In this document: piece by piece, positions 2,201-42,091 of the stretch
Position numbering within the stretch: position 1 is the stretch's first letter
How the letters are laid out: each line of letters opens with the position of its first letter
Virus record (IMG/VR): IMGVR_UViG_3300022198_003066
Span: 1-42,358 of that record
Source of the DNA: a virus
Length of the DNA: 42,358 nt
Direction: 5' to 3' (one strand)
The notes under the pieces: generated by a model
Seen by the model: the letters and a program-made list of their open reading frames with translations, nothing else
Told to the model about the DNA's origin: nothing
Databases searched by the model: none
Made by a program: the position numbers and the translations under genes

Positions 2201-4977
2201 GCGTTGAATACTTTCTATGTGTTGAGGGCTTGGGTTGGCCGACTGACATTAGCGATTTAACACAAGGCTTCAGCGGTACCGTTTTTGCGACTGGAGATCT
2301 TAACGGAGACTTGGCGACGGTGCTAGGTTGCACAGTCAAGTTGGGACTGAACCTACCGCGCGGAATCTCAGAACAGATGGATCCCAGAACGCTAGAGTAT
2401 AGCTCCGGCTCTATGTCATTCTCAGTTTTAGACGTGGATGATTTTCTTCAAACTAACGTCAGACCGCACGCAGAAGGCAAAACAGGCAAGCTCAACACCG
2501 ACACTGGAAACCTAGCAGGCACGATTCGGATCGATAATGCGACAACGACCTTTGATTCAGGGGAAACCATTTGGGTCGGTGGTCGTGAAGCAATGCGTCT
2601 CAATTCGAAATCGTTAGTCAGCGGAACCGTCTATCAATACGGAGTGACTAGAAACTACCTAGGCACGCCGCGCGGTAGAAAGTCCAAGTCGCCTTTTGGT
2701 TCAGGTAGTTTCCGCGCCGGGTTTACTTGGAAACAGAACACCGTGATCACACAGTACAACCGCTACTGGTTTGACCGTCGCGTTTTGCTATTCACGCATG
2801 TTCCCGGCGAGACTGTAGGCAATGTGGATCGGCTGTACACTGGACGCCTAAGAACTATCAAGCTCGCCGATCAAGGTATCGTGTATCAACTCGGGACAAC
2901 CTCAGAGACTGTAGACAAGAACCACACAACCTACACACCGCCCGGTGAGCTAGTAGTCGCAAATGTAGAAGACGTTGGAGACACTCAACTCATCAACCTT
3001 CCGGGCACGTCTGTTGACAGTCCCGTTTTAGACAACGAGCTAAACACTAGAAACACCGTCCGCATGGTGTCTAGATTCAAGATTACGGTTCAACCTAAAG
3101 ACGGTGGATCTGACATCTACACCCACTTTCAAGCCGCTTTCGCATATAACTACAGACGCGCAGCGGGCGGCACTGAAGGCGCTTTAAATCAAGCTTTTGC
3201 AGCGGGTGATCCTGAAAGACCTCAAGCTGTAGCAAGTGCGGGTCACTTGTTCCCTATTTTTAGCGTCATCAAAATAGGAAGCATGTTTACGCGGGCGATG
3301 GGAGACACCACAATCTGTCGTCCTGATTTTAACTCGTTTCAATGTGCGAAAGCCGCTTATGATTTAGGCGTCGGTCGCATAACAGAACTCCCGCAAGTTG
3401 GCGATCCTGTTATCTTCGGGCTAGATAACACCGTTGACGATATCAAAACGAATCGCTTCACCGTCAACAACGCTATCACTAAGAATCCGATCGATGTCCT
3501 ACTTTGCTTCTTAACGACAATGCCCACAGAGTTTGTCGTTGAAGACACTTCGGGATCGCCAGGCACAACAACCACAATCAACTTCGCGTCTACAATTGGG
3601 ACAGCTAATCAGTGGGTGGGCTACGCGCTACACGCGACCGAAGATTCAAACATCGGCGAAGCCCGCGTGATCGTGAGCAACACGACAACTTCAATCACTG
3701 TCGACGTCCCATTCAGCAACACGCCAACAGCGGCGAAAGAGTATCAAGTCAGAAACTCTATCTACGACGTTTTGCCGATTGGATGGGGTCTAGGCATTCC
3801 AAACGAGGAAATAGATATCTCTTCTTTTGAGACTGTGCGGAATACTTACCTAACAGAAGCGAGCCTAGGTAATTTCGCTTTGACACTGGACAAAGAGCTA
3901 GACCTTTGGGAGTTGCTGAAAGAGAACGTGGCGATTCCGTTCAATATCTTTCTGTTTCAAAAGAGAACAACAGGCAAACTTAGCTGCGAGTATGTCGCTG
4001 AAGTGGTCTCAAACTTCACCGCGACAACACTACCGACGATTTCTTCAAATGAGATTTTAGACTTGAGCCCGATTGATTTAGTCCCTAGATCTTCGGTGTC
4101 GCACATTGCGATCGAAACACGCAACGCAAATCAAAGATACATATCAGCGGGCGGCGGTGTTGTTACTCAATACAGAACGGGCACTAATCCATTTGTAGAC
4201 AACAAACACGAGCACACGATCACGATTAGGTCAGACGAACTAGACAACGTGTTTGATGATTCTATTTTGGGATCTCTTAAGTTCTCAGCAAAGCTAAACG
4301 ACACAAACTCAATCGCCGACCTTAGCGCGCGGATGATTAGCAGACTGAGACGAGAAGCTAGACCCGCGCCGGAGGTTGAGATCTCCCTTGATATTAGCCG
4401 TTTCAAAACACTACAGGTTGGGCAACTAATCAAAGTCACAGACACCGACACGTTTAAGCCTTTCAACCCGTATTCAGGGACGCGGGGTTTTAACTCAGTT
4501 GTCTGTCGAATCATTAGTTTGAATATGGAACTTGAAGGCACGCCTAGGATGCGTCTCAAGTTGCAAATCTTAAACGAAGCGAACACCGCGTTGATCGCGC
4601 CCGCGTGTGTCGTCACCGCCTACAGTTCGGGAACATTCACAATTGACGTTTCGCAATTTGCTCAAGAAGGCGGCGAGTCTTGGGACTCGTTGTTTGTGAA
4701 TGACCGTCTCGAATTGAGAGACAAGAACGGGGCACTTAAAGGATCAACCTATGTGATCTCAAGCTTCGGTGCTAATACGTCTCCGCTTCCTTCTGGCGCA
4801 AGTACGGACACAATCAACATCACCACATCACCTAGTCTCACAATTGCGACAGGTGACTATCTAACTTTTGCGCCCTATTCTGGGTCGAACACAACGAACA
4901 TGGATCAGTACGCCGCCTATGCGGACTCTACGACCGAACTACTAACCGGCGGCGATGCTGCGAAAGAGTTTGTGTAA
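2197..4977 (+). CDS. Large tail-tip protein, possible baseplate hub
   Basis: The 926-residue product begins at a GTG inside the GTGA overlap with the preceding gene. It is predicted mostly beta-stranded, with many Thr, Asn and Asp residues, and has no transmembrane segment. Length and position (second gene after the tape measure) fit a hub or tail-associated protein that holds the tip together and contacts the host surface. No lysozyme, peptidase or lectin motif could be picked out. Residues 600-790 look like a compact domain (VPRSSVSHIAIETRNAN followed by an SLKFSAKLNDT region), as in hub-type proteins, but this is impression rather than proof. The end overlaps the next ATG by one base. Confidence 0.55.
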   Translation: MSVEYFLCVEGLGWPTDISDLTQGFSGTVFATGDLNGDLATVLGCTVKLGLNLPRGISEQMDPRTLEYSSGSMSFSVLDVDDFLQTNVRPHAEGKTGKLNTDTGNLAGTIRIDNATTTFDSGETIWVGGREAMRLNSKSLVSGTVYQYGVTRNYLGTPRGRKSKSPFGSGSFRAGFTWKQNTVITQYNRYWFDRRVLLFTHVPGETVGNVDRLYTGRLRTIKLADQGIVYQLGTTSETVDKNHTTYTPPGELVVANVEDVGDTQLINLPGTSVDSPVLDNELNTRNTVRMVSRFKITVQPKDGGSDIYTHFQAAFAYNYRRAAGGTEGALNQAFAAGDPERPQAVASAGHLFPIFSVIKIGSMFTRAMGDTTICRPDFNSFQCAKAAYDLGVGRITELPQVGDPVIFGLDNTVDDIKTNRFTVNNAITKNPIDVLLCFLTTMPTEFVVEDTSGSPGTTTTINFASTIGTANQWVGYALHATEDSNIGEARVIVSNTTTSITVDVPFSNTPTAAKEYQVRNSIYDVLPIGWGLGIPNEEIDISSFETVRNTYLTEASLGNFALTLDKELDLWELLKENVAIPFNIFLFQKRTTGKLSCEYVAEVVSNFTATTLPTISSNEILDLSPIDLVPRSSVSHIAIETRNANQRYISAGGGVVTQYRTGTNPFVDNKHEHTITIRSDELDNVFDDSILGSLKFSAKLNDTNSIADLSARMISRLRREARPAPEVEISLDISRFKTLQVGQLIKVTDTDTFKPFNPYSGTRGFNSVVCRIISLNMELEGTPRMRLKLQILNEANTALIAPACVVTAYSSGTFTIDVSQFAQEGGESWDSLFVNDRLELRDKNGALKGSTYVISSFGANTSPLPSGASTDTINITTSPSLTIATGDYLTFAPYSGSNTTNMDQYAAYADSTTELLTGGDAAKEFV

Positions 4978-5831
4978 TGCCAACAGAAGCGCCAAAAATA
5001 CCGACAGAGTTCATTAGGCTAGACGATAGAACGTCAACGACCGATCACTACATCAACGTTGGCGATTTGAGAAAGTCTTACGAGAATCACAACATTCTAA
5101 TAGCTAGACGCCTAAAGAGAAACATTCTCACAATGGGAACCGCGTTTACTTTGCGCGGTGGTTTTCCTTTGAGTTCAAACTTTCCAGCGCCGCCAGCACT
5201 TGAGATCCCGATCAAGCTATCGGCGCACGTCTCACAATTAGACGTGAACTTTTACGGACGCCGCGCGGGAGTTGAGTCTTATCTCTACTTCTCTGTTGAC
5301 GGTCCAAACGGCGCAAGGCCGCTAGACTCTAGCCAGACGATCACAGTTAGCGCGACAAGCAACACGCTTTACAGTGTCAATTTAGAAATCCCAAACGAAG
5401 CTGTCGTCGCAGGTGAAGGTTTTCTAAGAGTCTATGGAGTCACACCAATAGACACAGGAACCAAAGTTTCTACACATGACGAGATTGTCACCTTGGGAAT
5501 GAACTCAGTTACCATTGAAGACAACGCTGTGTCAGATACGGACGTCGGGAAATACATAATCTTCGGAACTTATAGCGGGGGATCTCTAACACCGTTCCCC
5601 GACATGCGTCCCAAAATGATTACAAGTGTAATTTACCACCACAGAACCGGTGGAGGTGGCGGGACTGATGAACGATCGATTCGATTCGCTCCCGCGCTTG
5701 AGTATCTGCCTGGCCTTAGCAATTTAGGATACGAGGTGATCGACTCAGGAACGATTCTCTTTGAGTCTTTGTCCGTTTATGAGAAAGCAATAGAACCGGC
5801 GACAGGCTTTTACTCGGAGCGTATCCTATGA
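4977..5831 (+). CDS. Putative tail-tip or fibre-associated protein
   Basis: The 284-residue product starts at an ATG overlapping the upstream TAA by one base and ends in an ATGA overlap with the next gene. It is predicted mainly beta, with a Gly-rich turn (TGGGGGTDER, about residues 226-235). The family is not recognised. Its place in an unbroken run of overlapping tail genes makes a virion role likely. A carbohydrate-binding or fibre-attachment role is possible, but nothing in the sequence proves it. Confidence 0.5.
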   Translation: MPTEAPKIPTEFIRLDDRTSTTDHYINVGDLRKSYENHNILIARRLKRNILTMGTAFTLRGGFPLSSNFPAPPALEIPIKLSAHVSQLDVNFYGRRAGVESYLYFSVDGPNGARPLDSSQTITVSATSNTLYSVNLEIPNEAVVAGEGFLRVYGVTPIDTGTKVSTHDEIVTLGMNSVTIEDNAVSDTDVGKYIIFGTYSGGSLTPFPDMRPKMITSVIYHHRTGGGGGTDERSIRFAPALEYLPGLSNLGYEVIDSGTILFESLSVYEKAIEPATGFYSERIL

Positions 5832-6966: not shown

Positions 6967-6983
6967 TCGCAGATTGAGAGGGT

Positions 6984-7385: not shown

Positions 7386-8129
7386 ATGAACAAGGCAATG
7401 AAAGAACAAGCAAAGAATCTCAAAGTGACACGCGACGCGGCTGGTTACTACTACGCAGAATCGCACGGCTATTCGTGGGAGATCCACTTCAACGATTCAA
7501 CGCGTCGTTGGAACGCTTCAGTGTACGATGCGAAAGGCGAGCACTACGAGTGGGATCACTGTTTCGATACACTCGCAGAAGCACGCGCCCACGTGCTCGA
7601 ACAATCCGAGCACATGCGCAACGACCGCGATCAAAGTTGGTGGCACCGCTACGGACTAGACCCAGAACGTCAGAAGCAAATTGAGACAAAGGAAAAGCCG
7701 CTTTCACTAAAGACACGGCTTGAGGTTGTGGGCTTGCATCGTGAGTACACACTGAACAAGCACTTACACGCGCAAGCGTTCGAGCGCATGGGTCGCCTAG
7801 TTAGTCGAAGTCTCGATCTGAGAGAAGAACTAGGCGCGCACTACAAGGAATCAATTCAAGAGATTCAGGTGAAGCAAATTGAGATGCAAGAACGCATAGA
7901 TCAACTCTACGTTGAGATCTTCCAAAAGGCGCGCGGCCTATCAGCAAACGACCCTGAGTTCATAAAGAAGCTTGACGCTATGACTTGGGGGACTGACGAC
8001 AGAACGCCAGTAGAGTTCGAGCTTGAACATCTACCGGAACTAGGCGCGCTCTCAAATTGCGAATGCGGTGAAGAGAACTTCTACTTCACACTCAGCGACG
8101 GGACACGCGGTTTCATCAAGTGCCTATAA
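7386..8129 (+). CDS. Early protein of unknown function, 247 aa
   Basis: It starts at the ATG after AAAGGAAAAAAGCA. Residues 20-70 are rich in Trp and Tyr (a repeated Y-W-I then R-W-A pattern) and may form a small beta domain. Residues 110-200 are charged and helical, likely coiled coil. The C-terminus has C-x-C and a late Cys (NCECGEENF then FIKCL) that could bind a metal. I do not recognise the family. It is the first gene of the rightward early operon and is followed by a GCAA-loop hairpin with a short T-run. Early promoter-proximal phage genes often encode host-takeover or counter-defence proteins, but nothing here shows a specific role. Confidence 0.55.
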   Translation: MNKAMKEQAKNLKVTRDAAGYYYAESHGYSWEIHFNDSTRRWNASVYDAKGEHYEWDHCFDTLAEARAHVLEQSEHMRNDRDQSWWHRYGLDPERQKQIETKEKPLSLKTRLEVVGLHREYTLNKHLHAQAFERMGRLVSRSLDLREELGAHYKESIQEIQVKQIEMQERIDQLYVEIFQKARGLSANDPEFIKKLDAMTWGTDDRTPVEFELEHLPELGALSNCECGEENFYFTLSDGTRGFIKCL

Positions 8130-8206: not shown

Positions 8207-9133
8207 ATGACTAAGAGAACAACAAACAAGAAGCGCAAGCCACTTACACAAGAAGAGAAGCAAGCAAAGCGCGACGCAGTGAAGGCGGCGTGTGAAGATA
8301 TCAAAAAGGGAATGCGAGAAATCGCGGCGAGTGGCGAATGGCAAAACTTCCTAGATGTCTATAGCGCGTTTCATCAGTACTCAATGAACAACGTTTGGCT
8401 GATTCAAACTCAAATGGCAGACCGTTACGAACGCGGATTGTCAACGGTTCAAATTGCGACACGGTGCGCAGGTTATCACACTTGGAAGAAAGCAAATCGA
8501 CAAGTGAAGAAAGGCGAAGAAGGTTTACAGATACTCTGTCCGGTACCACTCAAAGCAACGCGCGAGGTTGACGGCGTAGAGGAAGAATATGGATTTATGC
8601 GGTTCAGATTAGGACACACGTTCGACATCTCACAGACTGAAGGTGAAGATCTCCCTAGCCTAGTTACCCCATGCAACGACCGAAAGGCTGTAGCGAAATG
8701 GGTAAACAAGTTGAAAGCGTTCGCGGAGTCTCGCGGAACCTCAGTCAAGTTCGGTGAGATTGAAGGCCGCGCAAACGGTTACTTTGTACCGTCTCAAAAT
8801 AGAATCGTGGTTTCTAAGAAGCTGCGAGGTACTCAGAAACTAAAGACCCTGATTCATGAGATCGCGCATAGCTTGCTACACAGCGACAACCCAATAACGG
8901 ACGCGAGAGATCCTAAACACTCAACCTATGCGCAAGGCGAGGTTGAAGCTGAATCGGTGGCATACATTGTGAGTCGCATCTTAGGATTCGACACTAGCAG
9001 TTACTCGTTCGGGTATGTCACAGGTTGGGCGCGCGCAAAGCCTGAGATGGTAGATGAAGCGGTTAAGCAAATTTCATCAGGTGTCAAAACGATACTTGCC
9101 GGAATCGGAGTAGAAGAACCGGCAGCCGAATAA
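8207..9133 (+). CDS. ArdC-like antirestriction protein with zinc-peptidase motif
   Basis: The 308-residue protein has a basic N-terminal tail (1-25). Residues 45-115 match the ArdC N-terminal single-stranded DNA-binding domain in pattern (FLDVYSAFHQYSMNN, then ATRCAGYHTWKKANRQVKKG). Residues 205-260 form a zinc-metallopeptidase segment, with HEIAH at 217-221, LLH just after, and EVEAES at 245-250 supplying the third ligand. ArdC-family proteins on plasmids and phages protect incoming DNA from restriction; the peptidase is thought to act on a host target. Its early position suits protection soon after entry. The start follows AACAAAGGAAACAGCA. It could instead be a related ImmA/IrrE-type early protein, but the ArdC N-terminus makes that less likely. 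Confidence 0.82.
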   Translation: MTKRTTNKKRKPLTQEEKQAKRDAVKAACEDIKKGMREIAASGEWQNFLDVYSAFHQYSMNNVWLIQTQMADRYERGLSTVQIATRCAGYHTWKKANRQVKKGEEGLQILCPVPLKATREVDGVEEEYGFMRFRLGHTFDISQTEGEDLPSLVTPCNDRKAVAKWVNKLKAFAESRGTSVKFGEIEGRANGYFVPSQNRIVVSKKLRGTQKLKTLIHEIAHSLLHSDNPITDARDPKHSTYAQGEVEAESVAYIVSRILGFDTSSYSFGYVTGWARAKPEMVDEAVKQISSGVKTILAGIGVEEPAAE

Positions 9134-9201: not shown

Positions 9202-9555
9202 ATGAGAAGAACAGACATTGACACACTACTAGAAGAGAATGACGCGGAAGAGTACTGCGTAGAAGACATGATGATCGACACACCGCCGATGATTGTCGCA
9301 AATGCGGACTTGATGGAGATGCAACGAATCGTTGAAGAGCTAGAAGCCGACGATCTCTTTGAAGATGTCTACCATGCCGCGCGCTATCACTACGCGAGAT
9401 GGTGCAACGATAGCGATACGGGATCCCTAGCGTACTGGTTCGCAGAACACAGCGTTTCCCGCACCGCCTACTTGGACCTACGAACCAAGGTGATCGAGAG
9501 GTGTCAGAATGAGATTAACGAGCACATGAAGTACTTTGAAGAAAACGACCGCTAA
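9202..9555 (+). CDS. Acidic early protein of unknown function, 117 aa
   Basis: The start ATG follows AAGGATTAGCAAA. The product is strongly acidic, with Asp and Glu clusters through residues 1-55, and helical; it lacks Cys-pair or catalytic motifs. Acidic small phage proteins can mimic DNA or bind basic host proteins, but this is only a possibility. It sits between the antirestriction gene and the clamp-like gene and shares their intergenic architecture. Confidence 0.5.
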   Translation: MRRTDIDTLLEENDAEEYCVEDMMIDTPPMIVANADLMEMQRIVEELEADDLFEDVYHAARYHYARWCNDSDTGSLAYWFAEHSVSRTAYLDLRTKVIERCQNEINEHMKYFEENDR

Positions 9556-10324: not shown

Positions 10325-10900
10325 ATGGAAATCAAATACAACAGCAAGCAACAGTTCACCCTCTCAAACTCTAACCGCGTTATGCGTATCCACTGGCGGC
10401 GTTGCTACGATAGCCCGCACGAGGGACCACAGTACGTTTACGAAGTCTTCAATGGCGTCGAGGGTTGGCAAGACTACTGTCGGTATAACGAGCAACAGCA
10501 CACAACGAACATGCGCAACGCAAAGCCGGTTCACTTTGAGACACTGGACGATCTGCGAATGTGGGCGTTTCGTCTAATGGCTGATCACAACTATGAAAAG
10601 TTTCGCGCGAAAACCCGTGATTCTTACCTGATTCAAAACCCGCACCGCATGAAGGCGCAAGCACTCTATGCGGTCGGTAGGACGATCCGGTTGGCGTTAG
10701 GGTTTAACGAAAGAAGCCGTTCTCAATTTGGAAACAGAGTGATCAAGCCTACCGACCTCGACGGTGTGAGCGTTCAGCTACTACCGCCAAGCGGCTTAGG
10801 TACCAAAGCAACGCACCGTCTCAAGATGACATGCCCAATCTGTCAGCAAGAAACCACGGTCGGAAAGTTCTGGCTACACGCAGAAGCGAAGCACCAATAA
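10325..10900 (+). CDS. Early protein with C-terminal C2H2-type zinc finger
   Basis: The 191-residue protein starts after AAAGGAATCTCAAA. Residues 1-85 are rich in Trp, Tyr and Arg, and the segment HFETLDDLRMWAFRLM resembles a helix in other small phage proteins. The last 22 residues hold C170 and C173 (CPIC), then H185 and H190, a C2H2 zinc-finger arrangement that usually binds nucleic acid. This suggests a DNA- or RNA-binding regulator. The exact family is not recognised. Confidence 0.55.
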   Translation: MEIKYNSKQQFTLSNSNRVMRIHWRRCYDSPHEGPQYVYEVFNGVEGWQDYCRYNEQQHTTNMRNAKPVHFETLDDLRMWAFRLMADHNYEKFRAKTRDSYLIQNPHRMKAQALYAVGRTIRLALGFNERSRSQFGNRVIKPTDLDGVSVQLLPPSGLGTKATHRLKMTCPICQQETTVGKFWLHAEAKHQ

Positions 10901-11757: not shown

Positions 11758-11981
11758 GTAAGCCAAGACTAACACCTAACAAGCTGGCGAAGTTCATCAT
11801 ACTTAACCAGATAGAAAAGCCGCAAGCTCAAGTCCTACAATGGGACGACAAGCAAATCGTGATCGATGCGTTGGGGAACGTACTAGTCAACGGTAGGCTT
11901 CAGAACATGGAAGAAGTGATGCGTCACTTTGAACGCAATAAGCAAACAATCAAAACCAAACTTAGCGCGGAGTGGTACTGA
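11754..11981 (+). CDS. Small basic early protein, 75 aa
   Basis: It starts within the ATGA overlap, preceded by GGAGGTTTCAAA. The central part (KQIVIDALGNVLVNGRLQ) looks like a short beta hairpin. The function is not recognised. Its TGA overlaps the next ATG by one base. Confidence 0.5.
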   Translation: MSKPRLTPNKLAKFIILNQIEKPQAQVLQWDDKQIVIDALGNVLVNGRLQNMEEVMRHFERNKQTIKTKLSAEWY

Positions 11982-12547
11982 TGGATCTCGTAACAGCACA
12001 AAAGACTTGTAAGCAGATGAAGAAAGATTCGGACGCATGGATCGAAGTCATCGACGGTTTTCAAATTGAGAACGCAGAACACGCGGAACTTGCGTCTGAG
12101 TGTTTGAAAGAACTCAAAGAGAAGCTAGACCTTGTAGAAGAAACTAGAACCGGAATCACTAAGCCGTTGCTTGAAGCTAAGCGGAAGGTTGATGCGCTGT
12201 TCAAGCCGGTTACGACTAGTCTCAAAGCGAGCCTAGACACATTGCGCGGTAGGCTTGGCAAGTACACCGCACAACAACGGGAAGAGGCGCAACGCCTACT
12301 AGCGGAAGCGTCTCAATCTGAACCTGAGGAAGCGGCTGCGTTAGTTGCTGCGAGCAACAGAGCCAAAGCAGAAGCGCCAAGCGTTCGAGAGGTTTGGCAA
12401 TTTGAGATTGAAGATGTGAGCAAGCTTCCTTCTCAATTCTTGATACCAGATGAGAAGGCGATCGGTGCGGTTGTCCGTTCTCAAAAGGGGAACGCCAAGA
12501 TCCCAGGGGTCAAGGTATTCGTAGAGCATAGAGCGGTGATCAAATAG
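11981..12547 (+). CDS. Conserved-type phage coiled-coil protein, possible recombination accessory
   Basis: The start is ATG 11981, overlapping the upstream TGA by one base, rather than a GTG nine bases earlier. The 188-residue product has a long helical region (res. 1-125, KELKEKLDLVEETRTGITKP and similar) and a C-terminal beta segment: VREVWQFEIEDVSKLP, then IPDEKAIGAVVRS, then IPGVKVFVE. That C-terminal pattern is familiar from phage proteins of unknown function that often sit near recombination or replication genes. A role in DNA recombination is inference from that memory only. Confidence 0.55.
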   Translation: MDLVTAQKTCKQMKKDSDAWIEVIDGFQIENAEHAELASECLKELKEKLDLVEETRTGITKPLLEAKRKVDALFKPVTTSLKASLDTLRGRLGKYTAQQREEAQRLLAEASQSEPEEAAALVAASNRAKAEAPSVREVWQFEIEDVSKLPSQFLIPDEKAIGAVVRSQKGNAKIPGVKVFVEHRAVIK

Positions 12548-12877: not shown

Positions 12878-13126
12878 TCAGACGGTTTCCCAGTCCGTCC
12901 CGATCTCCGTCTCAGGCACAATCTTGAATAGTATTCTACCCCTGAGTAGATATTTAGCTACCGGCGTGGTTTCCGAGATCTTCTGAATGTGCCGATAGAT
13001 CGTGCGTTCGCTGGTCTCAAGTTGAGACGCCAAGAACTCTATAGTCTTTGCCGATTCGGTTAGCATCTCGACAAGCTTGTAGAACTTTTCTTCGTTTCGT
13101 TTTGCGCCAGAACCAATGCCGCCCAT
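12878..13126 (-). CDS. Small HTH DNA-binding protein
   Basis: The 82-residue product has a helix-turn-helix pattern at about residues 27-51 (TIEFLASQLETSERTIYRHI), resembling the HTH_11 or DeoR-type winged-helix N-terminus, with a beta C-terminus that could be the wing. It is the last gene of the leftward replication operon; its ATG directly abuts the upstream TAA, with GAAGAGG as ribosome site. It probably regulates transcription. It is one candidate for binding the palindromic motif spread over the genome, but no direct link is visible. Confidence 0.65.
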   Translation of the reverse strand: MGGIGSGAKRNEEKFYKLVEMLTESAKTIEFLASQLETSERTIYRHIQKISETTPVAKYLLRGRILFKIVPETEIGTDWETV

Positions 13127-13588
13127 TTACAACCTCTTCAGTTTGTAGAGTCCGATCCCGATCGCATCCAACACATTATGCTTGAGCGATTTGGGACAAC
13201 TTAATCTGTCAAAGATTGAAATCTCCGATGCGTCAAGCTTTGTCAATATGCGACCCATAAAGATGTCCTTGGGAACGTTGCCCTTCCAAGTTCGCGGCTT
13301 CACCATTTCGAGTTCAAAGCATTGAACGCGACCGACTACACCGCCAGCGGCTTGTGCTAGTTTGAGAATATCTGAGTGACGGGCTTTTGTGTGTTGGTAG
13401 ATTTGCTGGTCTTCAACGACTAATGACGAGCAAAACGAAACGGGGAGATCTGCCAGTGTCTGTTGTAGGGTAGCGCCACGGGCTAGACCACAGTCGATCA
13501 TAAACTCATTCTGAAACATGGCCCAACCCATGCACTTTACGCCGGGATCAACCGCTAGGAGACCAGGGTTTAAGCTCGCCTTTATCAT
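13127..13588 (-). CDS. RuvC-like Holliday-junction resolvase
   Basis: The preferred start is the ATG at 13588, preceded by GACGAGGTGCGG; a longer frame to 13627 lacks support. The 153-residue product shows the RNase H-like fold signature of RuvC nucleases: LLAVDPGVKCMGWAMF with D14, VVEDQQIYQ with E59, and KHNVLDAIGIGLY with D141. Such phage resolvases cut branched DNA before packaging or during recombination. The gene overlaps the polymerase 3' end by 41 bases, so the two are made together. The catalytic acids are all present; the fourth acid of RuvC is not clear by eye. Confidence 0.8.
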   Translation of the reverse strand: MIKASLNPGLLAVDPGVKCMGWAMFQNEFMIDCGLARGATLQQTLADLPVSFCSSLVVEDQQIYQHTKARHSDILKLAQAAGGVVGRVQCFELEMVKPRTWKGNVPKDIFMGRILTKLDASEISIFDRLSCPKSLKHNVLDAIGIGLYKLKRL

Positions 13589-22624: not shown

Positions 22625-22637
22625 TCGCAATTTGACA
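22625..22637. promoter_or_regulatory. Operator-like motif over the terminase promoter
   Basis: TCGCA-ATT-TGACA matches the genome-wide dyad. Its right half is the end of the TTGACA -35 box at 22632-22637. A protein bound here would block or help RNA polymerase at the late promoter. Confidence 0.5.
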
Positions 22638-22659: not shown

Positions 22660-22690
22660 GATAAGATCCCCAAGTAGGAGGAAGTTCATA

Positions 22691-30895: not shown

Positions 30896-31153
30896 ATGGT
30901 TCGCAAGGTTGTTCGATATTGCAAAGTCGGTAGACTGGAACCCAACGTGCGGGAGATCTATCCGTCGCAATATGCGAACAAGCCTTTATATCAACCGGAT
31001 CGCGTGTCTTGTTCTGACGTGAACACTGAGACAGAGACACGGTCTATATACTGCCAGCAATGCGCGGCTCCGATTGAAGATAGTTCCGAATTAGCAGAAT
31101 GTTGGTTTTGCGAATCGGACAACTTTTTAGGTAGAGACTACAACCGTAGATAA
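30896..31153 (+). CDS. Small zinc-ribbon protein, 85 aa
   Basis: It starts three bases after the scaffold stop codon. The C-terminal half has CQQC and CWFC pairs (IYCQQCAAPIEDS, then AECWFCESD), forming a four-cysteine zinc ribbon. The N-terminus is basic. It is the second small Cys-pair protein in the head operon. The function is not known. The dyad motif TCGCA-ATA-TGCGA lies within the gene (30965-30977). Confidence 0.5.
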   Translation: MVRKVVRYCKVGRLEPNVREIYPSQYANKPLYQPDRVSCSDVNTETETRSIYCQQCAAPIEDSSELAECWFCESDNFLGRDYNRR

Positions 31154-31164: not shown

Positions 31165-31923
31165 ATGGCATTGACTGCAACTGCCACCCAAGGCTTTGAA
31201 TCCTACCGCAATTTAGATGCGGAAGAGATTCTACTCATTCCCGGAACAGCGGCGACCACGTTCACCCGTGGCGACGCAATTAAGATCACAAACGGCGTTG
31301 CCGCTGTTGCATCGGCTGGAGACGCAGCGATCGGTGTGTGTACCAAATCGGTAACCACGCCAGCAACTAGCGTCGCTTTCCCGCTTCCGACTGGTTATCA
31401 GTACGGACTTGAAGAAAGCCCAGATTCAACACTGATTCCCGTGCAGCTTTTTGCGAGTGCTGGAACACCGTTGTTTCAAGTAACTTTCCAGAACCATTTA
31501 GACATCACTGTGTCTGCTTATTCGTCAGCAACGCCAAGTCTCACTTTGGCAGCGGGCGATAAGACCGGCGCAGACGATGATCTAAACGGCGCGTTGGTTT
31601 ACGTTTACGAAGGACCGGGAATCGGTGAAGTCAACGTGATCACCGACTACGCAAATGGCACAGGCGTTTGCACTTTGGCGCGTAAGTTTGCGACTGATTT
31701 GACCGCTTCTAGCAAGTGTATCATTTTGGGTGGTGAAACCGGCGTCGGTTCTTTTGGCGTTGGCTTCTTCGGACGCTGCGACATTTCATCAGACGGAACC
31801 AAAGTTGACACAGACGACGGAGCGGACAACGGGCCGATCTCAGTTTGCATCGACTATCGCGAAACGGCGGACTTCTTGAAGAATCTCAAGTTGCCTGTCG
31901 GTCGACAAATCAACTTCGGTTAA
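31165..31923 (+). CDS. Putative capsid decoration protein
   Basis: The 252-residue product follows AAGGAGTTTCAAA. It is beta-rich with many Ala, Gly and Thr (NLDAEEILLIPGTAATTFTR at residues 17-36) and has no membrane segment. A gene of this type directly before the major capsid gene is often the head decoration or stabilisation protein. The assignment depends on order and composition. Confidence 0.55.
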   Translation: MALTATATQGFESYRNLDAEEILLIPGTAATTFTRGDAIKITNGVAAVASAGDAAIGVCTKSVTTPATSVAFPLPTGYQYGLEESPDSTLIPVQLFASAGTPLFQVTFQNHLDITVSAYSSATPSLTLAAGDKTGADDDLNGALVYVYEGPGIGEVNVITDYANGTGVCTLARKFATDLTASSKCIILGGETGVGSFGVGFFGRCDISSDGTKVDTDDGADNGPISVCIDYRETADFLKNLKLPVGRQINFG

Positions 31924-33323: not shown

Positions 33324-33712
33324 TGGTAGGTTTTGCAGACGCAACAGAAGGCGGCGCAGGCGGTGGCAAAATGGGAACCGCTGATTTCTATACTGAGACA
33401 ATCAGTGGATCGTCTATGACCGTAGACTTTGACAACGGATACTTTCAAGAGTTCACGTTGAATGCGTCTGTGACCTCGTTGTCATTTTCAAACGGACCAG
33501 ACACCGATGAAGGGAAGTCGGTGATTCTCGATATCGTACAAGGGACGGGCGGTAGCAAAACGATTACGTGGCCAGCAACTATCAAGTGGGATTCCGATAT
33601 TGCGCCAACACTTTCGACAGCGGTCGGCGAGGTTGATCGCATTGCGCTTGAAGCTGTGAATGACGGTGCGACAATCTACTACGGGCACTTAGTCGGATCG
33701 GATATGTCTTAA
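33323..33712 (+). CDS. Small beta-rich fibre-type protein, 129 aa
   Basis: The ATG is in a TGATG overlap, with AGGAG seven bases upstream. The segment FTLNASVTSLSFSNGPD and then SKTITWPATIKWDSDIAPTL is a pattern I recognise from C-terminal domains of phage fibre and tail proteins (T-W-P-x-x-I-K-W). The protein probably forms part of a surface fibre together with the LamG protein downstream. Confidence 0.58.
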   Translation: MVGFADATEGGAGGGKMGTADFYTETISGSSMTVDFDNGYFQEFTLNASVTSLSFSNGPDTDEGKSVILDIVQGTGGSKTITWPATIKWDSDIAPTLSTAVGEVDRIALEAVNDGATIYYGHLVGSDMS

Positions 33713-33713: not shown

Positions 33714-36464
33714 ATGGTAATGCCCAAAGACATAGCCAGGAGCTATCCAAAGCGCGGATTGACGGCGGATGTAGGTTTTCGGAGTGAGCCTACTTTTGTA
33801 GGTGACGGGTCGGTTTATTTCGATGGTTCGTCCGATTATGCGGAAACCGCAGCAAGTTCAGACTTGGCGGTTGGTGACACCTTCACGTTGACGGCTTGGG
33901 TTTGGTTGAATCCTAATCCCAGCGGATCGTCTAAGTATGCTTTCAGAGTAGGCGACACTGGCGCTCCGGTTCCTCACATTGCATCAATCGGAGTCTTTGG
34001 CGGCGCGAACCCAGGCTTTTATTGCTACAATGGCTCGGGCTCTATGTCGTCATCGGTTACTTGTGATTCTGCTCGATGGTATCATGTGGCATCGGTGATT
34101 AAGTCAGGTGCGGGCAACTCTCAACTCTTTGTTGATGGGATCGATGTAACCAACTCTCACTCAGTGGTATTTAACGTCACATCAGCATCGTCTAAAATTA
34201 GGATCGGCGATTGGAATACTGGCGGAAACGACTGGGAAGGCTACATCGCCAACGCTTGCCTATTCACCGAAAGCCTGACCGAAGCCCAAGTACGCCAAGT
34301 AATGCGTGCGTCCGATTATGCGAGCCATGCCGCAATCTCTACAGTGGAAGCATTCTACCCACTATCGGCAGACTTCAACGACTCGACCGGTAGCCATAAC
34401 GCTACACTAACCGGCTCGGTATCCTTTGGCGTCAACCGCCCCCAACTCCCACGCGGTCTCGATTTGGCACGCGGCGCGGCAATGGCGCGAGTGTATACGG
34501 GCAGGTGCGTTGACTTCGACGGCTCAACTGACTTTCTCGATATGGGAACCGGCGTTGATAAGAATTATACAACCCGGTCAGACCGTGCGAGTTTCTCAGT
34601 TTGGTTTAACACCGATCAAACTTCCATACCGGCTTTTATTTATCAGAATAGGACGCAAATAGTCACCGATCGCCCGGAGTGTGAGACCCATTTGTTTATT
34701 ACCACAGCACAAGGGTTGACTTTCGACGGCGAAGGTGCAGCTGTTCTCATTCCCATAACGAATTTGACAATCGGTAAGTGGCATCATTTTGTGGGCATTG
34801 CGGATGATACCGACGGACCGATCAAGGCTTATCTTGATGGGGTTCTTTATGACACCATAAGCCCTCCGCAAGCTGGCGCAAATGGTAGCGAGCTTTGCAT
34901 AGGCGCTCGAAACAATGCACCGGTTCAAGTCTTCAACGGTCAGCTTTCAAACTTTAAGATCTTCAACGTCGAGCTAACTCAAGACCAGGTTCGCGAGCTA
35001 TACCACAATCCCGAAATGATAATCCCTACCGGCGTAAGTGCCAACAACCTACGGCGTCATTATCCGCTCTGTGCATACAATGACACCGGCGGCATGGGCG
35101 GGCGTTATGAGATTGACCAAGGCGTCGAAGGTGTAAATGGTGAATATGGTGGCTCTCCGGTGATGGCCTTCGCTCAACCCGTACCGTGTCCGCAATTGGG
35201 ATTGCAGCAGAGTGCGACGCGGGTATATTTCGAGAACAATGCGACCAGAGCAGACGCAACCCTTGGCGCGGCTCCCGGCACTACTTGCACAATGTCGGCT
35301 TGGGTGATGGTGGAGAGCACCGGAAATTACCAATACATTTTCACCCAGGGGACAAGTGCCGCTGCAATCGCTTGGTTCGGGATTGCTAAAAACAACTCGG
35401 ATAACAAACTATACACCTTGCAAGGTGGTGTAATTGCAGCGTACTCCAGTCTTCAATTAAGTGGCTATGGTGAATGGAATCACGTTGTCGCTATGACGAA
35501 ATCGACTGCGCCTTATGTGCGTTTCTTTATCAATGGCGTTGAAGATACATCCATCAACGACATTAGTATGGCTGCTTACAATTTAACAAGTACCAGTGTC
35601 TCAATCGGCGGCAATCCGGTTTATGCCAACCACACGCAAGGCTTCCTAAACGACTGCGCAATTTGGGACGTGGAGTTGAGCGACCCTGAGGTGGCTTCTC
35701 TGTACAACTCCGGCGTTCAGGGTATGGACGTATCGACGGTTCAATCTGCGAATCTCAAGGGCTGGTGGAAGTGTGATGACCTTACGAGTTTTAAGGACTA
35801 CAGCGGTAACGGTGTTAACGCTACATTGACGGGTTCTGTTGTCGCCGCATCCTTCCCCGAAAACGCCAGCGGCTCGACTATCGTCGGTGACTTCTCGATG
35901 AAACGGAAGGGTGTGAGCGTTTTGAATGCCCCAGGCAGCGGAAGAGCTACGCTTGCGGCAAACTCTAGCCTCTTGCCTACAACTGGCGGCGGATACACAC
36001 TCTGTGCTTTTGTGCGACTCCAATCGACCAATGACGACGCGGCGGTCATTATGTCCACGTCTACCGGCGTCAATGAATGGGGTACATTCTACGAAGGCAG
36101 CACAAATAAGTACAAGATTGTGCTCTCAGACGGCACCACAAACATTTTAGATAGAGCATTTAGCGGGACTGTTACGGATTCGGAATGGCATCACATCGCA
36201 TGGACCATTCAGCTTGATGCAACAACGGCAACCGGCGAAACCTATATTGATGGCACTCCTGATTTGTCCTTCACGCGGTCATCTTTCAACACTCCGCCAA
36301 CGCCTAGCGAGTTCGCGATTGGGTACGACCCCGGCAACGCTGATAAGCAAGCTAATGCGGCGATTGCCTGTTTACGTATCTATCAGAGCGTTTTGTCCGC
36401 CAACGAAATTAAGCAAGTGTATTCTTCCGACCTTCGTCTCATAAAAGGATTAGAAAATGAGTAG
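33714..36464 (+). CDS. Four-domain LamG / concanavalin-like adhesin
   Basis: The 916-residue protein has four LamG-type lectin domains starting near residues 33, 264, 502 and 733. Each opens with a V-x-F-D/E-G-like strand, contains an S/T-A-W-V or S-V-W-F strand and an FVDG/YLDG/FING/YIDG turn, and ends in a helix of the type LTEAQVRQVM, LTQDQVRELY or LSANEIKQVY. Such domains bind glycans or proteins. It is likely a receptor-binding fibre or head-surface adhesin. It lies far from the tail-tip genes, just after the capsid genes. Strict copies of the genome-wide dyad are absent within it, which would fit later acquisition, though this is weak. No strong ribosome site precedes the ATG. Confidence 0.8.
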   Translation: MVMPKDIARSYPKRGLTADVGFRSEPTFVGDGSVYFDGSSDYAETAASSDLAVGDTFTLTAWVWLNPNPSGSSKYAFRVGDTGAPVPHIASIGVFGGANPGFYCYNGSGSMSSSVTCDSARWYHVASVIKSGAGNSQLFVDGIDVTNSHSVVFNVTSASSKIRIGDWNTGGNDWEGYIANACLFTESLTEAQVRQVMRASDYASHAAISTVEAFYPLSADFNDSTGSHNATLTGSVSFGVNRPQLPRGLDLARGAAMARVYTGRCVDFDGSTDFLDMGTGVDKNYTTRSDRASFSVWFNTDQTSIPAFIYQNRTQIVTDRPECETHLFITTAQGLTFDGEGAAVLIPITNLTIGKWHHFVGIADDTDGPIKAYLDGVLYDTISPPQAGANGSELCIGARNNAPVQVFNGQLSNFKIFNVELTQDQVRELYHNPEMIIPTGVSANNLRRHYPLCAYNDTGGMGGRYEIDQGVEGVNGEYGGSPVMAFAQPVPCPQLGLQQSATRVYFENNATRADATLGAAPGTTCTMSAWVMVESTGNYQYIFTQGTSAAAIAWFGIAKNNSDNKLYTLQGGVIAAYSSLQLSGYGEWNHVVAMTKSTAPYVRFFINGVEDTSINDISMAAYNLTSTSVSIGGNPVYANHTQGFLNDCAIWDVELSDPEVASLYNSGVQGMDVSTVQSANLKGWWKCDDLTSFKDYSGNGVNATLTGSVVAASFPENASGSTIVGDFSMKRKGVSVLNAPGSGRATLAANSSLLPTTGGGYTLCAFVRLQSTNDDAAVIMSTSTGVNEWGTFYEGSTNKYKIVLSDGTTNILDRAFSGTVTDSEWHHIAWTIQLDATTATGETYIDGTPDLSFTRSSFNTPPTPSEFAIGYDPGNADKQANAAIACLRIYQSVLSANEIKQVYSSDLRLIKGLENE

Positions 36465-37123: not shown

Positions 37124-37377
37124 TACGCAATAAGACTGCGGGGTTTAAGTCTAGTGAGTTTTGGCTAAATGCGATCGGCATGTTTGGCGGTCTAATCATA
37201 GCAACGCTTGAACAATCGCAAGGTGAGAATCAGTGGTTAACGCTTGTTGGCGGTATTCTGAGCGCGGTTTGCGGCGCGTCCTATGCTGCGAGTCGAGCCA
37301 AGATCAAAGCGTCACTTGTTGGCGCGGAAGCGGTAGCTCAAGTGGGAAAGCAGCAAGCCAACTCACAAGACAAGTAA
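37120..37377 (+). CDS. Putative holin with two membrane segments
   Basis: The start is the ATG in ATGA at 37120, with AAAGGAAG upstream. Two hydrophobic segments (residues about 13-31, FWLNAIGMFGGLIIATL; and 38-57, WLTLVGGILSAVCGASYAA) are joined by a short polar turn, and the C-terminus is charged. That is the class II holin arrangement. It would form membrane holes that release the downstream amidase endolysin and set lysis time. Confidence 0.68.
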   Translation: MIRNKTAGFKSSEFWLNAIGMFGGLIIATLEQSQGENQWLTLVGGILSAVCGASYAASRAKIKASLVGAEAVAQVGKQQANSQDK

Positions 37378-37849: not shown

Positions 37850-38398
37850 GTGGCAAACTTTGTAATCAATAAGATCGCAGAATGCGACGACGGCAAACCA
37901 AAGCCGCGCACAATTGAACGAATCGAGAAGTTCGTCGTTCACCGTATCGGTGACAGCCTAGGCGAAACGGCTCAAGAGATCGCTGCCGCATTTCGAGACA
38001 CAAGCAAACATGCCGCGGGAAGCTATACCTCTGGGCAACAACCCTATACTTGGATCATCAGAAAAGACGGAACGATCGAGCAAGCGTTAGCAATGACGGA
38101 CACGGGACCACACGCAAAGCGTTGGAACTCTTCAAGCGTTTCTGTTGCTTTGATTGGAGACTTTACCAAGCACGAACCGACAGAAGCACAATGGGATTCG
38201 CTCGTTAATCTATCTGTAGCTATGCTTAGAATGGGGTTTACGATTCACGGACACACTGAACTACCGGGTTCAAGTAGCGATTTGAAAAAGCAATGTCCGG
38301 GTCATTTGTGTGATATGGACAAGCTACGCAAAGAAGCGACGTCGAAACTTCACGAGTCGGCGCTCGAACACCTTCTCGAAATGGGAATCAAGCTGTAG
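37850..38398 (+). CDS. Endolysin, N-acetylmuramoyl-L-alanine amidase (Amidase_2)
   Basis: GTG 37850 is chosen because AAAAGGTGAGAAC precedes it; the longer frame overlaps the upstream gene. The 182-residue product has the amidase_2/PGRP pattern: FVVHRIGD with H31, SVSVALIGDF (96-105), GHTELPG with H135 and QCPGHLCD with C149, giving the His-His-Cys zinc site. It cuts the bond between muramic acid and the stem peptide of peptidoglycan at lysis. No cell-wall-binding domain or signal peptide is present, so it depends on the holin. A copy of the dyad motif (37875-37887) lies in the gene. Confidence 0.85.
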   Translation: MANFVINKIAECDDGKPKPRTIERIEKFVVHRIGDSLGETAQEIAAAFRDTSKHAAGSYTSGQQPYTWIIRKDGTIEQALAMTDTGPHAKRWNSSSVSVALIGDFTKHEPTEAQWDSLVNLSVAMLRMGFTIHGHTELPGSSSDLKKQCPGHLCDMDKLRKEATSKLHESALEHLLEMGIKL

Positions 38399-39890: not shown

Positions 39891-39902
39891 GGGGTTCTCA
39901 TT

Positions 39903-41591
39903 ATGACAACGTTTCTTTCACGCATTAGCAATCAAGTTCAACTTGCATACGTTCCGCACACTTCGGTTCAAGGTGACGTGTGGCAACTTCAACGCAAGTC
40001 AACGGCGACAAGTTCTGGCGCTAGTAATGGGACAACCTTGATCGACGATCAACTAGGTGCGACCGACAACGTGTGGAATGGGAAGTATTGGATCCACATT
40101 CTCAGCGGTGACGCAAAAGGGGAATGGCGACGGATCGTAGACTACACGGGATCTAGCACAACGGCCAAACTAGAGGGTAACGGCTTCACGGCTCAAATTG
40201 CGTCAGGCGTAGAGTATGAACTTTGGCTAAGTCCTGAGCCGGTTGTCGTTGCCACTGCTACAAGTGCGGGAGGCAATCAGTGTGTAGACACGAATCGAAA
40301 TGAGCCAGATGATTTCTGGGTCGGTTACATGCTAGTCGCAGCAAACGGCGGTACTGCTAACTCAGCGGCTAGATCCGGTTTTAAGATTACTAGCTTCGTT
40401 AACGCGACCGGCGTTTTCACCGTAGATGCTTCAGACTTGCCCATTGGTTGGGGTTCAACTAGCTCGGCGGGCGATGTCTATTTGCTACGCAAAGCAATTG
40501 ACGCAACAGACATTAGCGCGGGCGTCGCAGAAGAGTACATTCCACGTGGAACAAATCGTGTGAACTTCTCAAAAGGCGACGGCGTTGTGGGTCCTAGGTC
40601 TGGAACGTTTAGCTTTAGTCTACCGATCCGACCTAGTGGTTCGCTTGCTTCAAGCGGCAACAAACCACAACAAAGCAACGTCGGTGGGCTTCTTGAAGCG
40701 TGCGGACTAGAAGAAACAATCACCCAGAGTCAAACTGCGACAACCGGAGGAACCACAACTTCAATCGTCTTTACCGGGACGACAGATGTTCCGAAGATTG
40801 GCCAGATGGTGATTCATAACGGGAACGCAACGTTTGTTACTGCGATCTCATCGAGCGGCGGCAATACTACTTTGACCGTTAGCCCAGCGTTACCAGTAGC
40901 TCCAGCAAGCGGTGATGTTATCAATTTGAGTCGCATGTACAGCACTACGACAGACGGTGATCTGTACGGCGTTACACTTGAATATGAAGTTGACTCAGTA
41001 CGACACACGATCACGGGCTGCATGGGCAATGTGACACTGAACGACGGCGCAGCGCCGACCATGTCGTTCGAGTTTCAAGTTGACCATTGGATCAGAAACA
41101 TTCAAGCAAGTGGTTGCAGCTACGTTCGCGGCTACAGCACCGTCGCTCCTATTCTGGCACAGGACCGACTCGCGTATCTTGACGGCACCGCCGCAGATAT
41201 CGGCGGACTAACCGCAACGCCGGGAACTGAGGTCGTCGCAAAAGGAGTACAGGGATCACAAGGCGTCAACGGTCGCGTTGGTTTCCAGATTAGCAACATC
41301 GTACCCGGCGCAACGTTCAACACGTTGTTAGACGCGCAAGGCTCAAGCATTCCGGAGGACGGCAAATTCCTAAAACGAACCGCAAACGATTTCGCAGTCG
41401 TCTTCGGTTCGCATGGTTCAACGTTTGCGGTTCGGTTGCCTGTAGCTAGATTGATTGAATCCCCAACGCCTACGGACCTAGACGGCGTTGTCGGTGCGCC
41501 TAACGTGGTTGAAGCGCAAGATGCTGGTCGCAAATTGAATGAGACTAACAATGTTAGTAAGGTTCCAGACTTCGCTTTTCACATCTCATAA
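39903..41591 (+). CDS. Major tail (tube) protein
   Basis: The 562-residue protein lies directly before the tail chaperone, the standard place of the tube protein in siphoviruses. It is beta-rich with many Ser, Thr and Gly. LLEACGLEET (about residues 265-274) is a phrase often seen in long tail-tube proteins of this type, and FEYEVDSV/ITGCMGNV-like strands follow. It is longer than the usual 150-300 residues, so it probably has added surface domains. A dyad motif copy (39896-39908) covers its start codon, and GGGGG serves as ribosome site. Confidence 0.68.
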   Translation: MTTFLSRISNQVQLAYVPHTSVQGDVWQLQRKSTATSSGASNGTTLIDDQLGATDNVWNGKYWIHILSGDAKGEWRRIVDYTGSSTTAKLEGNGFTAQIASGVEYELWLSPEPVVVATATSAGGNQCVDTNRNEPDDFWVGYMLVAANGGTANSAARSGFKITSFVNATGVFTVDASDLPIGWGSTSSAGDVYLLRKAIDATDISAGVAEEYIPRGTNRVNFSKGDGVVGPRSGTFSFSLPIRPSGSLASSGNKPQQSNVGGLLEACGLEETITQSQTATTGGTTTSIVFTGTTDVPKIGQMVIHNGNATFVTAISSSGGNTTLTVSPALPVAPASGDVINLSRMYSTTTDGDLYGVTLEYEVDSVRHTITGCMGNVTLNDGAAPTMSFEFQVDHWIRNIQASGCSYVRGYSTVAPILAQDRLAYLDGTAADIGGLTATPGTEVVAKGVQGSQGVNGRVGFQISNIVPGATFNTLLDAQGSSIPEDGKFLKRTANDFAVVFGSHGSTFAVRLPVARLIESPTPTDLDGVVGAPNVVEAQDAGRKLNETNNVSKVPDFAFHIS

Positions 41592-41629
41592 TGCTATAAG
41601 AACTTAAACTTTAAGCCTAAGAGGTAACT

Positions 41630-42091
41630 ATGTTTAAGCCAGTTCTACCGGAACAATCAGTTACGGTTGTTTCTCCTTTTGATCCAGCCATAGATGAATC
41701 TCAAAGTGACATTGAAAGTTACGGTGAACAAGCGTTGCGGAATCCCGGCGCTTGGCGAGATCACTTCAAGTTCAAAGAAGGCGCAGACCCTACAGAGTTT
41801 GAGATCGGCGTGATCCCTACCGCCAAACTGATTCAGATTGAGTCAGAGTGTGGGATCGGTAGCGATAACATCGACGAAGCTAAACTGCGTTGGATGTGCT
41901 TCCTTTACGGATTGAGGGACATTCGCAATTTCGGTCAAGACATTCCAAAGGTCACGGTCAACGGTGTCGATTATGTTGATCCTGAGTTCCTATCTAAGAA
42001 CTTCACGCGCAATCTGAGACACGTTGCGAGCAACTTAGGCGCGGTGATCTACTTCTGGAATATGCTCAACGACGACGAATCAAAAAACTAA
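41630..42091 (+). CDS. Tail assembly chaperone, short form (gpG-like)
   Basis: The 153-residue product follows CTAAGAGGTAACT. It has the properties of the short chaperone: soluble, helical, just after the tail-tube gene and expected just before the tape measure. It would coat the tape-measure protein during tail assembly. The last codons are TCA AAA AAC before TAA, a canonical -1 slippery heptamer (A AAA AAC at 42082-42088), so some ribosomes make a longer form. Confidence 0.75.
   Translation: MFKPVLPEQSVTVVSPFDPAIDESQSDIESYGEQALRNPGAWRDHFKFKEGADPTEFEIGVIPTAKLIQIESECGIGSDNIDEAKLRWMCFLYGLRDIRNFGQDIPKVTVNGVDYVDPEFLSKNFTRNLRHVASNLGAVIYFWNMLNDDESKN

Follow-up and report, generated by a model that had tools for sequence, protein, structure and literature searches.

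The virus record IMGVR_UViG_3300022198_003066, whose entire 42,358 bases form the stretch of DNA analyzed here (the window), carries a short dyad-symmetric motif, TSKCA-N3-TGMSA with its weaker variants, about once every 100 bp. The sites are symmetric, their two arms vary independently, they are regularly spaced, they are selected while their positions turn over, and, among the sequences examined, they are restricted to one clade. The reading that we tentatively prefer is that a homodimeric protein recognizes these sites in double-stranded DNA along the whole genome and plays an architectural, nucleoid-like role. A preliminary description of the window had pointed to the motif and offered several meanings for it; it had missed that the sites are evenly spaced, that selection maintains them, and that they are sharply limited to one clade.

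The excess of the motif over chance proved to be real and larger than first claimed. TSKCA-N3-TGMSA is present in 35 exact copies in the 42,358 bases, 19 of them fitting the strict form TCKCA-N3-TGMGA. A reversed control pattern had no match in the window, and spacers of 0 to 14 other than 3 gave only 0 to 3 matches each. Six of the 35 copies lie within 21,900-22,520 and 29 lie outside; the earlier figure of 21 copies outside this cluster was therefore an undercount. The "about eight" copies reported inside the cluster depend on the bounds chosen (6 in 21,900-22,520, 9 in 21,400-22,650). On the plus strand, 81 of 200 TCKCA pentamers are followed by N3-TG versus ∼11.6 expected (the earlier estimate was ∼60 of ∼150 pentamers, with ∼10 expected), and the copies cited as examples (at 23017, 24554, 29868, 7418, and 37875) are all there. 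A seed-free count of 3+3 dyads in the window put TCA-N3-TGA (55 versus 16.7) and GCA-N3-TGC (30 versus 9.8) on top.

With the pattern of the preliminary description as its starting point, a symmetric expectation-maximization (EM) fit of a palindromic mixture model yielded the palindrome KTCKCAAWTTGMGAM of ∼9 bits, with ∼480 expected sites and 422 sites with a posterior of >0.5. The gain in log-likelihood was 846 nats for the window compared to 217 to 282 for six dinucleotide shuffles, in which the fit collapsed to ∼2.4 bits. The fitted motif was retained in the left part of the window, in the right part, and in the sequence minus the array described below, each fit being started from the fitted matrix. 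Compared with 30 dinucleotide shuffles, the palindrome scored >8 bits at 351 positions versus 30.9, >10 bits at 238 versus 8.5, and >12 bits at 103 versus 1.6. At 6.5 bits, the counts were 421 versus 74.7. Because ∼75 sites of that strength are expected in shuffles, about one-fifth of the weakest site set may be chance, and ∼75 of the 422 sites with a posterior of >0.5 are attributable to it.

Codon usage was addressed with 60 shuffles that kept each protein and each gene's codon usage; the open reading frame (ORF) at 21289-21579 was not counted as a gene in these shuffles or in the coding/noncoding, frame, and spacing tests. Coding sites of >8 bits numbered 291 versus 64.6 ± 6.7 in the shuffles (maximum, 81; z ∼34), and those of >10 bits numbered 189 versus 25.6 ± 4.3. 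Coding copies of the strict pattern (14 versus 1.5) and of the loose pattern (23 versus 2.4) were likewise in excess. The consensus was nearly identical in all three codon frames, which were unevenly used (centre base at 83, 42, and 103 of 228). This near-identity, together with the excess over codon-preserving shuffles, excludes codon bias as the cause, which the preliminary description had called unlikely; it had also said that counts within the range of such shuffles would speak against the motif, and 291 lies far above that range. Codon-preserving shuffles do hold about twice the matches of dinucleotide shuffles (64.6 in genes versus 30.9 overall), so codon usage accompanies the motif. Given the z of ∼34, the near-identical consensus in three frames, and the selection at the sites reported below, we regard the probability that chance, codon usage, or mutational bias produced the pattern as negligible.

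We then asked about the symmetry of the sites. Is the motif read as double-stranded DNA, or does it fold into hairpins of a 5-bp stem and a 3-nucleotide loop in RNA or single strands, as an inverted repeat could? Covariation was analyzed in 321 sites of the window, in 217 sites of two related contigs (L007 and L014), and in 178 sites of a third (L011), with the array at 21,900-22,520 set aside in the window here and in the spacing tests. Paired arm positions were complementary no more often than would be expected if the two arms varied independently (z, −5.6 to +0.5), and mixed arms, such as TCTCA/TGCGA, were common. Column frequencies read along the gene were close to their own mirror image, and the consensus was nearly the same along or against the gene. 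Because the arms vary independently, the data point to a double-stranded site for a dimer reading two half-sites and not to a hairpin. The hairpin was rejected on the missing covariation of paired bases and is, in our estimate, scarcely credible. The centre AAWTT and the flanking CA/TG steps are what would be expected of a bent site.

The sites were also more evenly spaced than codon shuffles predict. Among the 321 best sites outside the array, gaps of <40 bp were rare (17 versus 59.2 ± 5.9), gaps of 80 to 120 bp were frequent (103 versus 56.1 ± 6.0), and gaps of >300 bp were depleted (14 versus 28.6 ± 3.5). Site counts per 500 bp were underdispersed, with variance/mean ratios of 0.48 in the window, 0.26 in L007, 0.53 in L014, and 0.72 in L011, and 10% of 200-bp stretches had no site versus 21% by Poisson. 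At >7 bits, the density was 8.6 per kb in genes and about equal in noncoding DNA (21 sites in ∼2.3 kb, array excluded). Placement is thus genome-wide and irrespective of genes, a feature of nucleoid-type binding.

A dense array stands at 21944-22493, where EM posteriors placed 28 sites of >0.5 in 550 bp (no strand assigned). Its gaps are 15 to 33 bp, 15 of the 27 being 17 to 18 bp. The array lies between the leftward gene of a primase-helicase (DUF5906 by domain match; 18951-21335, minus strand), which is also present in the nearest relative lacking the motif, and the rightward gene of the small terminase subunit that adjoins it (22658-23182, plus strand; family match). A second array was found in the related genome G004 (contig L168) at 4153-4632, at and behind the end of the large terminase gene, with 24 sites of >7 bits, most of them separated by 15 or 18 bp; in both arrays, spacings of 15 to 19 bp prevail. 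The periods of the G004 array are multiples of 3, and the array is spanned by an ORF running from the large terminase gene's end into the gene that follows. No such dense array was found in the sequenced parts examined of G003, another bearer genome, and of L007. Density by kilobase in G003 was 6 to 15 in the first 8 kb, at the terminase end, and 1 to 7 beyond; in G004, it was 6 to 13 in the first 10 kb at that end (the array's kilobase aside) and 3 to 9 beyond. The ends of the window were compared for exact repeats of 15, 20, or 30 bases, and none was detected.

Comparison with relatives bore on whether the sites are maintained. The closest relative, L005, is 90% identical over the aligned part; with poorly aligned stretches set aside, 85 sites were kept. 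Identity to L005 was 97.6% in their 13-bp cores, compared to 93.9% in the flanks; random 13-mers reached 94.3%. Within the sites there were 49 substitutions, at a mean cost of 0.26 bits, whereas random changes cost 1.71 bits. We scored a site as persistent when it exceeded 8 bits and still scored >6 at the same position in the relative's gene. In genes of ∼69% amino acid identity, 29 of 64 sites persisted (45%, versus 19% for permuted motifs); in those of ∼61% identity, 41 of 72 (57% versus 17%); and in those of ∼41% identity, 5 of 35 (versus 4%). Judged by these alignments, the sites are under purifying selection, and the lack of conservation in close relatives that the preliminary description had named as the other outcome fatal to its claim was not observed.

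Selection did not hold single sites in place over longer distances. In six comparisons of rising divergence, site centres coincided in 44 of 50, 27 of 47, 27 of 65, 39 of 82, 7 of 49, and 3 of 48 cases; 400 shift controls had means of 0.3 to 0.7, and all comparisons but the last exceeded their maximum. The last two, at 41% identity (controls mean 0.4, highest 3), kept their density of sites; in the last, between the window and L012, the 3 coincident sites are not above the highest of the 400 controls. Since centres diverge while density is kept, single sites turn over, and presence and spacing matter more than place.

Which phages carry this lattice? The motif is borne by the window and by 13 other contigs, fragments of 4 to 26 kb (L005, L007, L008/L012, L011, L013, L014, L164, L166, L167, L168, L170, L171, and L172); L165 and L169 are contigs of L014 and L011 again. 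They do not represent 13 independent lineages, as several are near-identical or overlapping and come from related samples (e.g., L011/L013 and L014/L164). The excess of bearers over shuffles was 13 to 53 in units of root(expected + 1), and the next locus reached 3.0, in a survey of 136 loci (L108-L243) in which 127 lacked the motif. It was also absent from 13 other loci of a seed-free dyad survey. EM fits, all started from the window's matrix (as were those of the two window parts), stayed on the motif in L007, L008, G003, and G004 and collapsed in L006, L009, L010, and G005. Between lineages the half-site shifts, from TCKCA in the window to TCCCA in L008/L011. When other dispersed dyads were sought in 188 loci or records of >8 kb, a spaced dyad came on top only in bearers among the 32 rows listed, the nonbearers among them being headed by unspaced hexamers. 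One remote PolA relative, L122, has TGGCCA 52 times in 17.2 kb versus 6.6 for control spacings. Among the sequences examined, these surveys show the motif restricted to one clade.

The nearest nonbearer, G005 (loci L108 and L173), has a primase, an exonuclease, a helicase, an SSB-like protein, PolA, RuvC, and a ParB domain in common with the window, and terminase and structural genes in common with G003 and G004. It is not a clean negative: it has 55 sites of >8 bits versus 31.1 ± 5.9 in shuffles and 23 of >10 bits versus 8.3 ± 1.9. Six of these 23 fall in the 4.5% of its DNA that is intergenic, 21 to 117 bp before a gene (P ∼0.0004). Tentatively, these sites may be ordinary operators of similar specificity, either the origin from which the lattice expanded or what is left of it; the excess may come partly from AT-rich intergenic DNA.

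The preliminary description had also suggested that the motif might be taken over from the genome of the host. The cellular survey that bears on this covered 141 genomes, 140 of them of one phylum. These 140 had 0 to 14 copies of TCTCA-N3-TGAGA each and no dense motif, in a phylum that may not be the host's. Remote relatives of the primase occur in two metagenome-assembled genomes (MAGs), of which one belongs to the surveyed phylum; these two had 6 and 5 copies of TCKCA-N3-TGMGA and no dense motif. The 3.4-kb contig L106, which is assigned to a Candidatus Omnitrophota MAG and may be a phage fragment in that bin, also encodes a primase-helicase relative (30%).

Each of the 51 window genes was scanned against Pfam or PHROGs or both (4, large or of known kind, against PHROGs only). 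The only small window protein with an above-cutoff Pfam DNA-binding domain in the scans run is an 82-amino-acid protein with an HTH_11 helix-turn-helix (HTH) domain (12878-13126, minus strand; Pfam scan), an unproved candidate. The preliminary description had also named as a possible reader the ParB domain fused to an N6/N4 methyltransferase (28115-29767, plus strand; domain match). Of 483 confirmed ParB relatives, the best 80 were fetched, and 79 of these loci (52 to 66% identical) lacked the motif, with 354 matches versus 463 expected; the 80th, L026, is a contig of the known bearer L005 and was left out of the sum, and the presence of the fused methylase was unchecked. These loci contradict the suggestion that the motif is the target of the ParB-methyltransferase, which was rejected as the reader. 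As for a ParB/parS partition site, the window's ParB protein has a weak ParB_N match below the cutoff and no HTH match, and the motif does not track with an HTH-bearing ParB, since the ParB domain occurs without it. The terminase is an unlikely common binder as well, because the window lineage and the other lineages have different terminases (no phmmer match at E ≤ 0.01) while the motif is the same.

A family of ∼137-amino-acid helical proteins is found in four bearer lineages (L007, L014, L011/L012/L013/L016, and G004/L168), at L007:2624-3037:+, L014:3496-3900:+, L011:9231-9635:+, and L168:424-849:−. No member was found in the searched nonbearers, in the window, or in the other bearer fragments searched, and an AlphaFold model (mean predicted local distance difference test score [pLDDT], 73.8; four sequences) had no match at E ≤ 0.001; the family likewise had no confident match in the databases. 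Its genes are divergent from HTH_17-ParB genes and adjoin the primase where the contig extends. The small HTH_17 (excisionase/MerR-like) protein beside the ParB gene (L007:2261-2623:−; L250:989-1201:−, which is G005 33389-33601) is conserved in the bearers L007, L011, L014, and G004 and in the nonbearer G005 and was not found in the window.

The number of the sites, their evenness, and their indifference to gene boundaries are hard to reconcile with a switch, so that the most probable role is that of an architectural or protective coat. A dimer would grip one site per ∼100 bp, within and between genes, and the protein would bind the entire genome simultaneously. Its task would be to fold, coat, or protect the phage DNA, in the manner of a nucleoid protein, rather than to switch single genes, and the dense arrays beside terminase genes may act as a nucleation or packaging-initiation point. 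Nucleoid-associated proteins and phage coats, such as p6 of phi29, occupy many weak sites genome-wide and have an architectural role. The window resembles them in its many weak sites over the whole genome; we know of no nucleoid protein or phage coat that uses a degenerate dyad every 100 bp. Of the earlier suggestion of a nucleoid or partition-like protein, the nucleoid half fits best, and no protein could be put to it. A more specific form, which we consider possible with less assurance, is a chromatin-positioning code, selected via synonymous choices, that would align a dedicated dimeric architectural protein, as nucleosomes are aligned, and be seeded from the terminase-side array; its gain or loss would have taken place inside one clade, and the nearest relative of that clade has only a small operator-like set of similar sites.

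Several observations weigh against an architectural protein of this kind. The search among window proteins against relatives found no binding protein. The 82-amino-acid HTH protein has no close relative in the viral contigs or examined loci, the contigs of the other bearers stopping short of its region, and a structure model of it (pLDDT, 73.7; one sequence, low confidence) had no PDB match. The proteins common to the window and the replication fragments of other bearers (ParB domain, primase, exonuclease, helicase, SSB-like protein, and PolA) all occur in the nonbearer G005 too. The regularity also varies, L014 and L011 being less regular than L007 (gaps of <40 bp, 27 versus 37 and 39 versus 64 expected), and no 10.5-bp helical phasing between sites was seen. 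With a pair correlation of 1.2 to 1.9, the peak near 95 bp is broad and of modest height, so the regularity consists mostly in a scarcity of close neighbours and long gaps; since the arrays show that close packing is possible, the avoidance of gaps of <40 bp is not simple steric exclusion. The binder may be encoded in the early region, which the fragments of other lineages lack, or the host may supply it.

The sites could instead be a tag of self DNA, which would mark phage DNA for packaging, replication, or sparing, at one tag per 100 to 200 bp, while untagged host DNA is ignored or degraded. The even coverage (10% of 200-bp stretches without a site against 21% by Poisson), the dense arrays beside terminase genes in the window and G004, the higher density near the terminase end of G003 and G004, and the scarcity of sites in the LamG tail gene would all fit. 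The terminase-binding arrays of phage pac and cos regions are dense repeats beside terminase genes, as are the arrays here; unlike in those regions, the same site is found genome-wide, and the terminases of the two array lineages have no match at E ≤ 0.01, which makes a terminase an unlikely reader. Furthermore, no nuclease or uptake protein is tied to the motif. DNA uptake sequences of Pasteurellaceae and Neisseriaceae are described, in passages of PMC1939737, as over-represented genome-wide and favouring the uptake of DNA of their own kind, and in a passage of PMC2346458 as commoner in one orientation. They resemble the motif as short signals over-represented genome-wide, whereas they are cellular and oriented and the window's site is symmetric and carried by phages. 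On balance, we judge a self-DNA tag unlikely. Still more doubtful is a host protein, either nucleoid-associated or a global regulator, to whose binding the phage genomes would have adapted. This would explain why the motif is common to lineages with different terminases and why the search turned up no phage gene whose presence follows that of the motif, and the drift of the half-site from TCKCA to TCCCA could follow different hosts; however, the 140 genomes of one phylum and the two MAGs, which may not include the host, lacked a dense motif.

A genome-scale repressor/stoperator network, in which operators of a phage regulator would have spread as transcription roadblocks, had been another suggestion of the preliminary description. 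The set in G005 looks operator-like (23 sites of >10 bits versus 8.3 ± 1.9, 6 of the 23 intergenic), although that excess could partly reflect AT-rich intergenic DNA, and TTGACA, which resembles a −35 box, lies inside some window sites, such as those at 21944, 22041, 22546, and 22625. The stoperators of cluster A mycobacteriophages (L5 and Bxb1) are described in passages of PMC9283540 and PMC6550527 as asymmetric 13-bp sites, mostly in one orientation, that occupy promoters and short stretches between genes, some also lying within genes, and number >20 and up to ∼30 per genome. The window's sites are likewise putative 13-bp targets of a protein, dispersed over a phage genome and not confined to promoters. 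They differ in being symmetric and hence without orientation, equally dense in genes with no intergenic preference in the bearers, evenly spaced at ∼10 per kb, and about 10 times as numerous. In addition, no integrase was recognized among the 51 window genes, each scanned against Pfam or PHROGs or both. We hold such a network to be improbable. The families matched in those scans included no known repressor, and the window does encode the 82-amino-acid HTH_11 protein. Far less likely is a methylation or restriction-related target, including one of the ParB-methyltransferase. The ParB-methyltransferases of L005 and L007 are 93% and ∼55% identical to that of the window, and six other bearers (L008, L011, L013, L014, G003, and G004) encode proteins related to its ParB domain or to its methylase part. 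However, the 79 similar-ParB loci and G005, which has the ParB domain, lack a dense motif; in the L008/L011 lineage, the ParB gene stands alone, unfused to the N6/N4 methylase and with a C5 methylase behind it; and a methylation target would not account for a degenerate site of 13 to 15 bp or for the even spacing. The precedent of cyanobacterial HIP1 (GCGATCGC), described in PMC4390886 as an exact octamer of host genomes for which orphan methyltransferases of GATC and CGATCG were a clue, is similar as a palindrome at high frequency through a genome. Unlike HIP1, the window's site is degenerate, 13 to 15 bp long, and phage-borne, and its presence is not tied to the phage's methylase. HIP1 itself was rejected, with 2 copies of GCGATCGC in the window.

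The tail gene with LamG (concanavalin-like) domains (33714-36464, plus strand; domain match and site count) has 6 sites of >9 bits versus ∼17 at the genome's density (P ∼0.002), and the stretch of G003 with a relative of this gene is likewise site-poor (1 to 2 per kb). The scarcity would fit a slow accumulation of sites in recently exchanged genes. The first 268 residues of the LamG protein are 61% identical to the L005 relative, where the L005 contig ends, and its neighbours are 97% identical. At 31165-31923, a gene 54% identical to its L005 counterpart, with neighbours at 92 to 99%, is site-poor as well (2.6 per kb at >9 bits). Elsewhere in the window, 11972-12547 is related to phage exonuclease/Mu Gam-like end-protection families (phrog_10477 and phrog_2205), with relatives in L020, L021, and G005, and 8207-9133 encodes an anti-restriction-like protein (phrog_7245) with a metalloprotease-type match.

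The individual pattern matches outside the array, to which no strand is assigned, are, in the left half of the window, TCGCACACTGCGA (1997-2009), TCGCACATTGCGA (4099-4111), TCGCAGATTGAGA (6967-6979, intergenic), TCTCAAAGTGACA (7418-7430, with a second copy at 41699-41711), TCTCAAATTGCGA (8050-8062), TGTCAGAATGAGA (9502-9514, with a second copy at 21409-21421), TCTCAAGATGACA (10819-10831), TGGCAATTTGAGA (12395-12407), TCTCAAGTTGAGA (13015-13027), TGTCAATATGCGA (13241-13253), TCGCAAGTTGCGA (14195-14207), TGTCATAATGAGA (20042-20054), and TCTCATCGTGAGA (20675-20687). Between the array and the small terminase gene lie TCTCATATTGACA (22546-22558) and TCGCAATTTGACA (22625-22637). Farther right are TCGCAACTTGAGA (22777-22789), TCGCAAAATGCGA (23017-23029), TCTCAAACTGAGA (24554-24566), TCGCAAAGTGACA (24713-24725), TGGCAAATTGAGA (25268-25280), TCGCACGTTGCGA (29534-29546), TCGCATTGTGAGA (29868-29880), TCTCAGTGTGCGA (30766-30778), TCGCAATATGCGA (30965-30977), TCGCAAGGTGAGA (37216-37228), TCGCAGAATGCGA (37875-37887), and TCTCATTATGACA (39896-39908). 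With these 29 matches and the 28 array sites subtracted from the 422 sites with a posterior of >0.5, ∼365 weaker palindrome sites are spread over 1-42358, again without a strand.

If the architectural reading is true, this is a tailed phage with a regular protein-binding lattice written over its coding sequence. To our knowledge, such a density of sites is known in no virus, and among the matches listed from the open full-text literature, no phage with such a lattice was found by title or start of abstract. The system would then lend itself to studying how codons are constrained by binding along an entire genome, and the close relatives without the lattice would show how it is gained or lost. 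The motif alone suffices to pick out further members and to seek the binder.

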